Source: Opitutales bacterium
Lineage (GTDB): Bacteria; Verrucomicrobiota; Verrucomicrobiia; Opitutales; Oceanipulchritudinaceae
Length of the DNA stretch: 39,973 nucleotides
Direction of reading: 5' to 3'
Assembly: GCA_020831585.1 (NCBI GenBank)
Contig: JAFIGE010000034.1
Location: forward strand, 1-39,973
Below are positions 18,363 to 24,789 of this stretch, one piece after another. A program made the translations under genes and the position numbers. Numbering within the stretch: the first letter of the stretch is position 1; every line of letters begins with the position of its first letter. The notes beneath the pieces are model-generated. The model was given only the letters and a program-made list of their open reading frames with translations, searched no databases and had not been told where the DNA came from.

Positions 18363-18405
18363 AAGCTTGATTTGGTTTGGGTTTTGTGCAGGATGCGCTG
18401 GCACT

Positions 18406-19401
18406 ATGATGCAATTGGTTCCGCCCAAGTCCCGCCGGGCACCCCGGATTCTTGTTAAGGATGCTCGGGCCTGCTATCACGTGGTCAGCCGTGTCGTTGA
18501 TCGGTCTTTTCGGTTCACGGACGTGGATAAAGAGGTGTTTCGCGACCTGTTGAAGCGGGTGGGGACGTTTTGCGGGGTGCGGGTGCTGACGTATGCGGTG
18601 CTGGACAACCACTTTCATCTTCTTGTGGAAGTGCCTGCTTCGCCGGGGGAGCCGGATGACGAAGAACTCCGTCGACGGGCGCGCTTGCTCTATGGCGAGG
18701 AGAGGAAGGGACAGCCGTTGTCCTTCTTTCGTATTGATCGGGCCCTGGTCGCCGGGGGCGATAGCCGCGAACGCATGCGGGCGCTTTTGATCGGGCGGAT
18801 GGGCTCGCTGCCGATGTTCGTGAAGATTCTGAAACAGCGCTATTCAATCATGCACAACCGCAAATACGACCGCCTGGGGACACTCTGGGAGGATCGTTTC
18901 CATAGCGTATTGGTGGAGGATTCGGCGGCAGCGTTGACCGCCGTGGCCGCCTACATCGATTTGAACGCGGTGCGGGCGGGAATCGTGAAAGATCCCAAGG
19001 ATTATCGTTTCAGCGGCTATGGGGAGGCTGCGGGCACGCGGCAGGGATTCAGTCGCTTTGCCTTGTTTGTGCGGATTGCGGCGGAGCATGCCGAGTCGAT
19101 TGAGGAGATCGCCGCGCTGTATCGTCGCCGTCTCTATATTTCCGGGAGTGACCCGGGCAAGGGGGCGACCGTCTCGAAGGAGGGATTGGAGCGGACGCTT
19201 CGCCAAGACGGGACGCTCACGCGAGGCGAATCCCTGCATTGTCGCCTTCGCTATATGACGCGGGGGGCCATCATCGGTTCGAAAGCATTCATTGAGGCAT
19301 GGACGATCAAAAATAAAGGGCGATATTTTCCCAAACGTCCGAAACGCCCCAAACCGCTGTTTCGGGAGCCCGAGGAGTCGTCTTTGTGTCGGCTTCGCTG
19401 A
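18406..19401 (+). CDS. REP-associated tyrosine (Y1/HUH) transposase
   Basis: A 331-aa paralogue of the transposase at 6162-7160. The HUH motif is in VLDNHFHLLVEVP. The candidate nucleophile tyrosine is in ILKQRYSIMHNRKYDRLGTL, followed by LWEDRFHSVLVED and AAYIDLNAVRAG. The C-terminal extension has LHCRLRYMTRGAIIGSKAF and ends in a basic tail (FPKRPKRPKPLF). Two tandem ATGs at 18406 and 18409 are both possible; no ribosome-binding site stands out. The two complete copies are clearly diverged, so this is an old family rather than a recent transposition. No inverted repeats or target duplications were found. Confidence 0.87.
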   Translation: MMQLVPPKSRRAPRILVKDARACYHVVSRVVDRSFRFTDVDKEVFRDLLKRVGTFCGVRVLTYAVLDNHFHLLVEVPASPGEPDDEELRRRARLLYGEERKGQPLSFFRIDRALVAGGDSRERMRALLIGRMGSLPMFVKILKQRYSIMHNRKYDRLGTLWEDRFHSVLVEDSAAALTAVAAYIDLNAVRAGIVKDPKDYRFSGYGEAAGTRQGFSRFALFVRIAAEHAESIEEIAALYRRRLYISGSDPGKGATVSKEGLERTLRQDGTLTRGESLHCRLRYMTRGAIIGSKAFIEAWTIKNKGRYFPKRPKRPKPLFREPEESSLCRLR

Positions 19402-19626: not shown

Positions 19627-20334
19627 ATGAGTCAGTACAATCCGGAAGGTTTTCCCGAAGGCGATTGGGACGAACGCGGCGATCTGTCTTGGAACGAATT
19701 CGATTGGAGGCAGTTTCTGCTCCGTCGCGGCAAGGAAGTTGAGCGTTTCGCCAGCCTTTACCAGATCCATTGCCACGAACCGGACCATTTGGACCATGTC
19801 GCTCAACAGATGGGATGGCAGGCCGAAGACTGGTCTGTGGCGGATTTTGAGGGGGAGGCGGACGATCCCGAAGCGACTTCAGGCGTGATCGGGGAAGATG
19901 GTTCGGATAGCTTGGACAGCGATCCCTACACGCTCCACCGTCACCCCGTTTTCATTGTCACCCGGGCACTTTTTGGCCAGTTGGAGTTGCTCATTGAGGC
20001 GCTCTGTGCGGTGCCCGGCATCCATTTGCGGGTTCGTCCGAAACGTTTGTGGGCGCTTGCCGGCGCGCTCTCGTCGGCTGAGCGTGAGATGCTGCTTGCG
20101 TTACAATCCCTCGACATGGGGGATTTCATGCTCGCCGTTCTACACTTCAAATTAGCGCACCAGGCAATCTCCGATACGATGACCCATCTCGAGGGCTTGG
20201 CTGATGTTTCCGGAGCCGCCGATGAGTTTCGTTTGGAAGGGCGCGTGCGCCTCTTCGATTTGCGTGAGGTCTGTTTGCGGGTGATGAGTGATTGCCGCGA
20301 GGAGGATCGGCGCAACTTCCGCGATCCGGATTGA
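19627..20334 (+). CDS. Acidic hypothetical protein, family not recognised
   Basis: A 235-aa predicted soluble protein. The N-terminal third is acidic and aromatic (EGDWDERGDLSWNEFDWRQF). The middle has an acidic low-complexity patch around residues 75-100, and the C-terminal half is helical (FIVTRALFGQLELLIEALC; LLALQSLDMGDFMLAVLHFKLAHQA). I do not recognise a domain. The ATG at 19627 follows AAAGG by about 12 bases; an upstream in-frame ATG at 19528 would add a region that looks non-coding. It is separated by 10 bases from the secreted PhoD-like gene, so they are likely cotranscribed. The 225 bases between the transposase and this gene hold no other recognisable feature. Confidence 0.7.
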   Translation: MSQYNPEGFPEGDWDERGDLSWNEFDWRQFLLRRGKEVERFASLYQIHCHEPDHLDHVAQQMGWQAEDWSVADFEGEADDPEATSGVIGEDGSDSLDSDPYTLHRHPVFIVTRALFGQLELLIEALCAVPGIHLRVRPKRLWALAGALSSAEREMLLALQSLDMGDFMLAVLHFKLAHQAISDTMTHLEGLADVSGAADEFRLEGRVRLFDLREVCLRVMSDCREEDRRNFRDPD

Positions 20335-20344
20335 TTTTCTCCCG

Positions 20345-21646
20345 ATGCCGCGCCTTTCCACGCTGGCCTTTGCATTCTGGGCGCATGGGCTCTATGCCCT
20401 TTCCTCTGTTGCGGCGAGTTTTGGTCTAGGCTATGTTCTGCCCGATGAGGCGGCTGTGTGGGTGGAGACTTTGGAGCGTGTTCAGGTGGAAGTCCTGCTT
20501 CGTTCCGATACGCGGACGGGCGCGCCCGCGACCCGTTTTTCCGAGGAAGCAAGGCAGGTCGACTCCAGTGGCCGGCATCGGGCTGTTCTGACGCTCGGGG
20601 CGCTTCGTTCCGGGAGCCATTATCGCTACGAAGTCCGGTTGAATGGCGAGGCGGCGGGTCTGGAGGGGCACTTTCGCACGCCCCCGGCTCCCGGCGAAAC
20701 GTTCAGCGGCTCCTTTCAAATCCTTCTCGCGGGCAGGGTGGAGGCGGTGCAGGGAACGCTTACGGAAAATTTGGATGCCACAAAGGCGCTTGTTGCATCG
20801 GGGGGCGATGCTATGATTTGGCTGGGCGGGCAACACGCTGCCGGAGAGGCGAGCCCGACTGCGGCGGGCTTGATGCAGCATTTTCGGTCGCTTGCGGCTG
20901 ATCCGGCGCTGGCTTCATTCCTTGCTTCGACGGGGCAATGGAGTGTCTGGGGGGCATCGGATCTTCCCCGCTCCGCTCAGGGGGCGCTTGGCCTGCACGG
21001 CGCTGCGGCGCGGGAGGCCTTTTGCGGGGCGTGGCCGCGCCCGGCCTGCGGTCATCCCGGTTTTGGCGGCATGGTCAACCAAGTCCGTTTGGGACCGGCG
21101 GAGTTTTTCTTTATCGACGTCGTTTCCTTTCGCGAGAGCGGCGGGGGTGGGCGGCGCGCCCGATTATTGGGTGATGCGCAAATGGATTGGCTCTTGGAGG
21201 CGCTGGATTCGAGCGATGCCCCCTTCCGCTTCGTGGTCGCCGGGCTTCCGCTTCTTCCGGGCACGCGGGGGGCGGAGAACTGGCGGGCGGTCGAAACCGA
21301 ACGCACGGAGTTTCTCAACCGCCTGCTTCTGCGCGACCCGCCCGGAGTCTTTGTTTTATCCGGCAATGCGCCGTTTGGGGAGTTGAGCCGGGTCGACCGC
21401 ACGGCCCGTTATCCCCTGCACGAGCTGACCCTCGGGCCCCTGCGTCAGGCGGACCCGGTACGGCAACCACCGCTCAACATGGACCGCCAACCGGGCACTT
21501 TCGTCGCCCCGGCACACTTTGCCAAGCTGACCCTCGGCAGTGCCCGCAACGATTGGAGCCTCACCGTCGAAGTTTTCGGAGGGAGCGGGCAGTTGCTTTG
21601 GCGCGACCACTTCCTTGCTTCCGAACTCGTTCGCCCACCACAATGA
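20345..21646 (+). CDS. Secreted PhoD-like metallophosphatase-fold protein, probably catalytically inactive
   Basis: 433 aa with a probable signal peptide in the first ~25 residues. An N-terminal beta domain (about 35-115; VLTLGALRSGSHYRYEVRLNG) matches the Ig/Fn-like domain of PhoD alkaline phosphatases. The rest follows the PhoD order: IWLGGQHAAGE (157-167) where PhoD has a LGDNIY-type metal motif, WSVWGASDLP (199-208) where it has W-DDHD, RARLLGDAQMDWLLEAL (271-287) matching the LGEAQ-WL helix, and VLSGNAPFGEL (337-347) where LSGD-HF is expected. The metal-ligand Asp and His residues are therefore replaced at several sites, while the scaffold is kept. The fold assignment is good; loss of activity is inference. 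Confidence 0.72.
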   Translation: MPRLSTLAFAFWAHGLYALSSVAASFGLGYVLPDEAAVWVETLERVQVEVLLRSDTRTGAPATRFSEEARQVDSSGRHRAVLTLGALRSGSHYRYEVRLNGEAAGLEGHFRTPPAPGETFSGSFQILLAGRVEAVQGTLTENLDATKALVASGGDAMIWLGGQHAAGEASPTAAGLMQHFRSLAADPALASFLASTGQWSVWGASDLPRSAQGALGLHGAAAREAFCGAWPRPACGHPGFGGMVNQVRLGPAEFFFIDVVSFRESGGGGRRARLLGDAQMDWLLEALDSSDAPFRFVVAGLPLLPGTRGAENWRAVETERTEFLNRLLLRDPPGVFVLSGNAPFGELSRVDRTARYPLHELTLGPLRQADPVRQPPLNMDRQPGTFVAPAHFAKLTLGSARNDWSLTVEVFGGSGQLLWRDHFLASELVRPPQ

Positions 21647-22387: not shown

Positions 22388-23446
22388 TTAGCGGCGGCGA
22401 CGATAGAGAACCAAACCCAGGGCGAAGAGGCCGAAGAGGGCGGCGTAGACGCGCGGCTCGGGAATGGCGTAGATGCCTGAAGTGGTGGCGAAGGCAATGT
22501 AGCCATCATACCAGCCGAGGGCCTGGACATTCCACGCCGGTGTGTCGCCGGTGATCAGATCCACCTGGAGGGAGCTTGCGGGTTCCGCAGGATCGAAGGA
22601 CGCAATCTGGCGATTATTGGTCGAAAAATAGACCCGCCCATCCGGAGCGTAGAACATGCGCTGAAGCGTTACACCCGTACCTCCGAGAACCCCGGTCAGG
22701 GTCGCCGTGTCCAAGACTGTGGCGCTGGCAGAAGTCGCGAGGTTGTAGGTTGCGATCAGGTTGGCATTGTTGCTGCCGAGAAAGAGCGTATCGCCGACCA
22801 GAGTGAGTGCGTTGACAGTTTGATTGGTCGCGCCCTCAAAGATGATCCCCAGATCATCCTGATCGAGGAGTCGGTTGATACTGGTCCAGCTTGTCTGGTA
22901 AAGGGCGCGATTGCCTCCATTGGAATTGGCAAAGATAAACTCGCCGTTGGCATCTGTCACGCCGGCACCGAGAAAACCGAGCCCCGTTTCCGGCACATTG
23001 GCCAGAATGGTGGCGCTGTTGAAGCCGGTGATAAGACCGCCCGAGTTGACATTCACGCGGTGGATGCCAATGACAGCGGCGGCTCCGGTGGTACCGAATT
23101 GCAGGAAGTTACCGGTGCGCTGGAAGCTGTGAATCGGCGAGAAGAACCCCGTGCCCCAATCTCCCGAGGTCATAAGGGTTGTCACCGTGGGTGTGCCACC
23201 GATACCGGTCACCCGGTTGATCTGATGGCCATCCCAAACGCCGCCGCCGGTGTTGGTCCCGCCGAGAGCCACATAGAGTGTGCCGCCGTCGAAAACAAAG
23301 TTTTGGATCGAAGCACTAAGGGCATGGTTGCTGACGTCGCCCAGCGAAGCGACCTCAAACACCTGCTGCGCGTGGGCTGCAGCCGGGGCCGTCAGGGCCA
23401 GAGCGACCGCAGCGGACTTGAGGAAGGAAGGTATATTTTTATTCAT
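22388..23446 (-). CDS. PEP-CTERM sorting-domain protein
   Basis: A 352-aa exported protein. A signal peptide is visible at the N terminus (SAAVALALTAPAAAHA-QQ). The C terminus carries the PEP-CTERM sorting signal: Pro-Glu-Pro at about 329-331, then a hydrophobic helix and a terminal RRRR. Proteins with this signal are processed by exosortase and often end up in the surface or extracellular matrix. The middle is beta-rich with repeated short strands (LTLVGDTLFLGSNNANLIATY; MFYAPDGRVYFSTNN), suggestive of a propeller-like fold, although the family is not recognised. There is no ribosome-binding site before the ATG. It is divergent from the RCC1-repeat gene and ends at a clear terminator. No exosortase is in the window. 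Confidence 0.86.
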   Translation of the reverse strand: MNKNIPSFLKSAAVALALTAPAAAHAQQVFEVASLGDVSNHALSASIQNFVFDGGTLYVALGGTNTGGGVWDGHQINRVTGIGGTPTVTTLMTSGDWGTGFFSPIHSFQRTGNFLQFGTTGAAAVIGIHRVNVNSGGLITGFNSATILANVPETGLGFLGAGVTDANGEFIFANSNGGNRALYQTSWTSINRLLDQDDLGIIFEGATNQTVNALTLVGDTLFLGSNNANLIATYNLATSASATVLDTATLTGVLGGTGVTLQRMFYAPDGRVYFSTNNRQIASFDPAEPASSLQVDLITGDTPAWNVQALGWYDGYIAFATTSGIYAIPEPRVYAALFGLFALGLVLYRRRR

Positions 23447-23556: not shown

Positions 23557-24789
23557 ATGAAAACGATTAGATCCCTTTTTGCAAGTATACTTATCGGTGG
23601 ATTAAGCATTTCTGCCAGTGGCGCGCTCCTGCACATTGGAGCTGGAAACCACCATTCAATTTTCCTCGATCCGGGTACTGGAGCGGTTTGGACGGTGGGC
23701 GAGGACATTCTCGGGCAACTGGGAAGGGGTATGGACAGCCCCCTGATCAAAGACAATCCGGAGCCTTTCCAAGTCGAGCCGGTCTGGTCCGGACGGGTGA
23801 CGGATGTTTCCGCAGGTCTCAACACGAACGCGATTGTAACGGAGGCGGGCGAGGTGTGGACATGGGGCTTCAACCGCCTGAACCAGCTGGGGCACTCGGC
23901 GAGCGAGGAAGTTGTGCCGGAGCCGCGGCGGGCTGAGGGGCTGCCCCCCATCGCCGATGTGGAGGCGGGCAGCGGATTCATGCTCGCGATCTCGCGGGAT
24001 GGCCGGGTGTTTGGATGGGGTAACAACGCCCAGGGCCAGTTGGGGCTGGGCGATGCGGCCCCCGGGCGTCTCGTGGAGCCCCGTCCAGCCCGGTTGCCGG
24101 AGGGCGTGCGCGTGCGTGACCTTGCCTTAGGGATCAATCAAGTCGTTGCACTCACGGAGGATGGGCGCGTGCTGGGTTGGGGGAATAACCGCAACGGCCA
24201 GGCGGGGGGTCCCGAAGGAGTTCGCCGGGTCACGGAGCCCGGTTTTGTGGGAGGGTTGCCCGAGGGTGTGCCGGTGGTGGCCATTGGCGCGGGCAACTTC
24301 ACATCTTTCGCGGTCCTCGAAGACGGGCGTGTTTTTGCTTGGGGCGAGAATCAGTTCGGGCAGATCCCCGGTGCTTCTGTTTCGAGCGTTTTTTCACCTG
24401 TGGAGATTTCCCTTCCGGTGGAAAATGTGCGCCCGAAGGCTATTTCCGGCGGGGCGCGCTATGTCCATGCCGTGCTCACCGATGGTCGCGTTGTTGCCTG
24501 GGGTGTGAATGGTCCGCAGGGGCAATTTGGCACAGGGGAGCGCGCGCGGGATGTGACTCAGCGCGAGGAGCCTCTGCTTCTTCCGGAGTCTCTCCGCTTG
24601 CGCGAAATTCACACCCAGACCAACCACACCGTCGCGCTCACGATGGACGGGCGCTTTGTGGGCTGGGGCTCGAATGCGCAGGGTCGTCTGGCGCGGGCGG
24701 ACCGGACCGAATCCGGCAGCCTCGCCACAGCGTTTCCTGATCCGATCAAGATCGAGTTTCTCGCCGAGGCAACCTCGTTGCGCGACTAA
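23557..24789 (+). CDS. Secreted RCC1-repeat beta-propeller protein
   Basis: A 410-aa protein with an N-terminal signal peptide (SLFASILIGGLSISASGALL). It has seven RCC1-type repeats, each with a V-x-x-WG-N-x-x-GQLG core: VWTVGEDILGQLG, VWTWGFNRLNQLG, VFGWGNNAQGQLG, VLGWGNNRNGQAG, VFAWGENQFGQIP, VVAWGVNGPQGQFG and FVGWGSNAQGRLA. Seven repeats make a complete RCC1 propeller. Bacterial secreted RCC1 proteins have no known enzymatic role and may bind protein or sugar. No sorting motif is seen at the C terminus. It lies upstream of exbB on the same strand and divergent from the PEP-CTERM gene across a 110-base gap. Confidence 0.9.
   Translation: MKTIRSLFASILIGGLSISASGALLHIGAGNHHSIFLDPGTGAVWTVGEDILGQLGRGMDSPLIKDNPEPFQVEPVWSGRVTDVSAGLNTNAIVTEAGEVWTWGFNRLNQLGHSASEEVVPEPRRAEGLPPIADVEAGSGFMLAISRDGRVFGWGNNAQGQLGLGDAAPGRLVEPRPARLPEGVRVRDLALGINQVVALTEDGRVLGWGNNRNGQAGGPEGVRRVTEPGFVGGLPEGVPVVAIGAGNFTSFAVLEDGRVFAWGENQFGQIPGASVSSVFSPVEISLPVENVRPKAISGGARYVHAVLTDGRVVAWGVNGPQGQFGTGERARDVTQREEPLLLPESLRLREIHTQTNHTVALTMDGRFVGWGSNAQGRLARADRTESGSLATAFPDPIKIEFLAEATSLRD

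Follow-up and report, generated by a model that had tools for sequence, protein, structure and literature searches.

Results

A PhoD-like gene with replaced metal-binding motifs

Is a protein that is laid out like a PhoD phosphatase still a phosphatase when the residues that bind its metals have been replaced, or has the fold been retained for another purpose? The question arises from a gene in a window of 39,973 nucleotides (the whole stretch of DNA that was analysed) from an Opitutales bacterium. An earlier note had described the gene product as a secreted PhoD-family protein lacking its metal-binding residues, and had proposed a pseudo-enzyme that is maintained and not decaying. The reading frame is indeed intact and runs uninterrupted from the ATG at 20345 to the stop at 21646. 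The following features were assigned to the gene, here termed pseudo-PhoD:

20345..21646, + strand: pseudo-PhoD gene, 433 amino acids, intact frame (open reading frame and homologues)
20345..20410, + strand: residues ~1-22, putative signal peptide of the Sec type (hydrophobic stretch at the N-terminus, modelled by AlphaFold2 as a helix over residues 3-20; similar N-termini in homologues)
20426..20683, + strand: DUF7800/Ig-like N-terminal domain, residues 28-113 (Pfam PF25077, 8.3e-10, above the cut-off)
20702..21637, + strand: PhoD/purple-acid-phosphatase-like fold, residues ~120-431 (AlphaFold2 model, Foldseek, VIA-align)

Judging by the hydrophobic N-terminus, the protein is probably exported. 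Single-sequence searches provide a weak link of the window protein to PhoD: the Pfam match to PF09423 (PhoD) is sub-threshold (6.4e-4, 19.4 bits, cut-off 27), NCBIfam yielded no match for the protein, and neither did phmmer against PDB sequences. Note that the curated PF09423 cut-off failed by the window protein is passed by L012, L020, L047, L054, L055 and L056, which belong to the same clade (see below).

The weak Pfam match was settled as a PhoD fold by structure comparison. An AlphaFold2 model built from an alignment of 32 homologues (pLDDT 86, pTM 0.88) retrieved Bacillus subtilis PhoD (2yeq) as its top Foldseek match (E=1.5e-22), with purple acid phosphatases from plants next, and VIA-align superposed it on 2yeq with a Z score of 30.4 over 393 residues. 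As modelled, the window protein has the PhoD/purple acid phosphatase fold with an N-terminal Ig-like domain. This bears out the claim that the PhoD scaffold is retained, as does the presence of the scaffold motifs LLGDAQMDWL (residues 274-283) and GELSRV (345-350). The overall fold, the Ig-like domain and the order of structural motifs are thus shared with B. subtilis PhoD, while its metal ligands are not. Likewise, the purple acid phosphatases of kidney bean (4dsy/1kbp) and sweet potato (1xzw) resemble the model in combining an N-terminal fibronectin/Ig-like domain with a metallophosphatase sandwich (VIA-align Z 31-32), but the window protein has no dinuclear metal ligands.

Substitution of C180, D265, N271, N272 or D436 abolishes the activity of B. 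subtilis PhoD, and substitution of D207 or D266 drastically reduces it (PMC4223295). When residue equivalences were established by an alignment anchored on canonical relatives of the same family and on 2yeq, all seven of these Fe/Ca ligands proved to be replaced in the window protein. The same holds for Y210, H267 and H438, which correspond to A165, S205 and P343. The positions concerned are, all by alignment:

20735..20737, + strand: R131 at the position of the iron ligand C180
20828..20839, + strand: G162 to A165, with G162 at the D207 and A165 at the Y210 position
20951..20959, + strand: G203-A204-S205 at the D265, D266 and H267 positions
20969..20974, + strand: R209-S210 at the N271/N272 positions
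21365..21373, + strand: N341 and P343 at the D436 and H438 positions

Accordingly, the canonical motifs WLGD, WDDHD and SGDVHF read WLGG (159-162), WGASD (202-206) and SGNAPF (339-344). The motif around the iron-ligand cysteine, FGSC in canonical relatives, is AGR. The replaced motifs LGG, GASD and SGNAPF had been noticed before; loss of the cysteine and of the N271/N272 sites comes in addition. From these replacements, phosphoester hydrolysis by the PhoD mechanism would not be expected, which is not to say that loss of the known ligands equals loss of every activity.

Loss of the metal ligands is conserved in a single clade

The comparison set 41 clade proteins, drawn from six families of the order, against 20 canonical homologues; L007, the open frame of which is a PhoD fused to other domains, was left out of the alignments. 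Orthologues with ~45% identity (L003-L005) occur in another genus within the family, and homologues with ~30% identity, exhibiting motifs like GGAHY, WxGNTAH, TWGExDF and SGGKxYGELTRL, in other families of the order. None of the five clearest ligands is present in 36 of the 41 clade proteins and a single one in five, compared with four to five in the canonical homologues. C180, D265 and D436 are not kept in any clade member, D207 is kept in two and D266 in three. The replacements themselves are conserved, with asparagine at the D207 position in 32/41 and glycine at the D436 position in 33/41 proteins. The loss of the metal residues is therefore shared by the orthologues, as the alignment proposed in the earlier note was meant to establish, and ligands that are shifted but present, which would have spoken against a pseudo-enzyme, were looked for in the homologues and not found within the clade. 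Several members are graded intermediates: L013 has D207, L016 has D266/H267, and L020 combines LGNNIY with SHD.

In a maximum-likelihood tree calculated without the motif columns, all 41 pseudo forms fall on one side of a branch with support 99/97, adjoined by canonical PhoDs of the same order. A single change accounts for the loss in each of the 200 bootstrap trees. Within the clade, the placement of L056 (family f3) is less sure due to its long branch. Taken together, clade support and fold identify the window protein as a pseudoenzyme of the PhoD lineage that descends from active PhoDs.

A second, separate and partial loss of ligands was observed in family f14 (L066:1342-2700, L069:1322-2668 and L074:817-2337; support 100/100). 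In these proteins, C180 is replaced by G, D266 by A or G and H438 by D, but both D265 and D436 persist.

A probable binding or scaffold role as the best explanation

We consider the following the best explanation, with a probability of about 0.72: pseudo-PhoD is a PhoD-derived pseudoenzyme, probably secreted, which goes back to one ancestral loss, is under purifying selection and in the cell envelope most likely has a binding or scaffolding role that involves no catalysis. The metallophosphatase beta-sandwich is preserved, together with the Ig-like domain, but the Fe/Ca centre would no longer be built. A single loss would have taken place in the common ancestor of the clade, which today occurs in at least six families of the order, to be followed by purifying selection and the acquisition of conserved residues of its own (G345 and the N-x-x-R-x-P motif). 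The remodelled face of the pocket may then make contact with a protein, a glycan or a small ligand. Of this account, the fold, the replaced ligands, the selection, the single clade and the conserved gene neighbourhood were observed directly, and export, inactivity and the role as such are inferred.

The role is suggested by analogy with VPS29 of the retromer, a rigid, metal-independent scaffold in which phosphatase activity is not detectable (PMC3101248). VPS29 is the nearest precedent for the possible mode of action of pseudo-PhoD in that a metallophosphatase fold works as a non-phosphatase, but it belongs to another subfamily, is eukaryotic and cytosolic, has kept a vestigial metal-binding capacity and is not related in sequence. 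Plasmodium GAP50 (3tgh) offers a further likeness, a purple-acid-phosphatase-like fold serving as a membrane anchor according to the entry title (VIA-align Z 22.2, 255 residues). This comparison is by fold only; GAP50 is eukaryotic and without sequence kinship, and the aligned range does not include the N-terminal Ig-like domain.

Pseudoenzymes with a metallophosphatase fold are already known. In the open-access papers searched, we found none derived from PhoD and none among bacterial metallophosphoesterases, and as far as these papers show, an order-wide clade of PhoD pseudoenzymes has not been described. The clade matters for practical reasons, since metagenome studies commonly take the number of PhoD genes as a marker of organic-phosphorus use. 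Proteins unable to assemble the known Fe/Ca centre are liable to be miscounted as phosphatases, and at least six tested members pass the Pfam cut-off. Moreover, the clade provides a bacterial and apparently exported case of a metallophosphatase fold reused without metals, and its graded intermediates across families make the transition from enzyme to non-enzyme accessible to experiment.

Clade-specific residues and the possibility of a rebuilt site

In principle, the loss of the known ligands could also point to a changed enzyme, which has rebuilt its site for a different metal or a different chemistry on residues specific to the clade, such as the N-x-x-R-x-P loop or, within family f1, C227/C235/H237. 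The residues in question are:

21377..21382, + strand: G345-E346; G345 never varies within the pseudo clade but does among canonical PhoDs, E346 is invariant in both
21476..21493, + strand: N378-x-x-R381-x-P383; N, R and P are shared by all 28 representatives of the pseudo clade and mostly not by canonical PhoDs
21023..21055, + strand: C227, C235 and H237; conserved only in the four homologues from family f1

The clade-wide invariance of G345, N378, R381 and P383 indicates that new constraints arose, and the residues shared by the f1 members are absent from all other homologues. Both observations would suit a rebuilt site. On the other hand, C227 and C235 are the sole cysteines of a probably exported protein, so that a disulfide is the simpler and likely reading, with a new site as the alternative to it. 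Furthermore, no clade-wide cluster of acidic residues or histidines substitutes for the lost ligands: the near-invariant residues among D, E, H, C and N are limited to E35, D258, E319 and E346, which canonical PhoDs have too, and N378. We thus regard a rebuilt site as unlikely, although it is the main rival to the pseudoenzyme.

Occurrence of other PhoDs in the same genomes

Alternatively, pseudo-PhoD could regulate an active PhoD or another phosphatase, or act as a decoy for it. Pseudo and canonical PhoD do coexist in the f11 genomes G101, G188 and G270. The source genome, however, contains neither a second pseudo-PhoD copy nor an intact PhoD nor any other PhoD match, and the family-f1 relatives G008-G010, which have the pseudo form, likewise gave no PhoD match beyond the pseudo locus in a search that covered PhoD matches only. 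Conversely, those f1 genomes that have an intact-looking PhoD match lack the pseudo form. With no intact PhoD in the source genome, pseudo-PhoD is unlikely to control an active paralogue there, and we consider a decoy or regulator quite improbable overall.

Purifying selection and intact frames

Selection was measured on relatives of the window protein, since its genus has no second member. For close pairs within the pseudo clade, dN/dS amounted to ~0.10-0.22, and a value of 0.20 was obtained for the sole close pair of canonical PhoDs that has a dS below 1.3. The only comparison including the window protein, that with L003, gave 0.31 with synonymous sites near saturation. The close pairs of relatives show the pseudo clade to be under purifying selection.

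A decaying pseudogene under relaxed selection might be suspected in view of the long branch that leads to the window protein's subgroup (1.67 changes per column) and of its score below the PhoD Pfam cut-off. This explanation is largely refuted by the low dN/dS of close pairs, by the uninterrupted frame of each of the 41 clade members analysed, by the clade-specific invariant residues and by conserved synteny (see below). Conserved loss, dN/dS and synteny jointly characterize an old, selected pseudoenzyme, and the proposal that the protein has been maintained stands. An ordinary PhoD with ligands that are present but misaligned, conceivable at an identity to canonical PhoD of just ~20-25%, is hardly credible given that the flanking scaffold is unambiguous (W159, W202, D258, LGDAQ-WL, G340, E346), that nearby sequence contains no Cys, Asp or His pattern fit to serve and that L013, L016 and L020 form graded intermediates within the clade.

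A modular locus in the order

Upstream of pseudo-PhoD, and ending 10 bases before its start codon, lies the gene for a conserved partner that we term UP:

19627..20334, + strand: UP, conserved upstream partner, all-helical, without a Pfam family

UP was found in 306 out of 373 genomes of the order, nearly always in single copy. Comparison of its model (pLDDT 81) with PDB structures gave no match at E<=1e-3. By coordinates, 43 of 57 genomes have pseudo-PhoD at most 1.2 kb 3' of UP and on the strand that carries UP; in eight, it lies elsewhere or on another contig. The other six are without UP among the matches listed, and for three of these (L054, L055, L057) adjacency was confirmed from open reading frames.

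Families f11 and f3 have a third gene between UP and pseudo-PhoD. It matches sigma-70 region 4 weakly, with a best E of 9e-4 that is below the cut-off:

L041:7736-8557, L042:6965-7780 and L056:6644-7465: degenerate sigma-70-like gene between UP and pseudo-PhoD

The sigma-like gene also follows UP in families f8, f22 and f24, where pseudo-PhoD was not found in the flanks read, and some genomes of family f1 have UP alone (L062, L094). From these arrangements it follows that the order carries a modular locus in which UP may be accompanied by the sigma-like gene, by pseudo-PhoD, by both or by neither. The sigma-70-like gene possibly encodes a second repurposed protein at this locus. It is tempting to speculate that helical UP, the sigma-70-like protein of some families and secreted pseudo-PhoD make up a conserved order-wide operon for an as yet undescribed signalling or envelope system, with the dead phosphatase fold as its extracytoplasmic sensor or binding part, although we assign a low probability to this idea.

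In genome G018 (family f3), the gene after UP (L090:2741-4663) encodes a secreted-looking metallophosphoesterase of a subfamily other than PhoD, in which GD and GNHD motifs are present. In the window itself, an IS200/Y1-type (REP-associated-like) transposase gene is situated just 5' of UP (18367-19401). On the 3' side of pseudo-PhoD, two divergent genes encode a PEP-CTERM-like exported protein (22388-23446, - strand) and a secreted-looking RCC1 protein with seven repeats (23557-24789, + strand).
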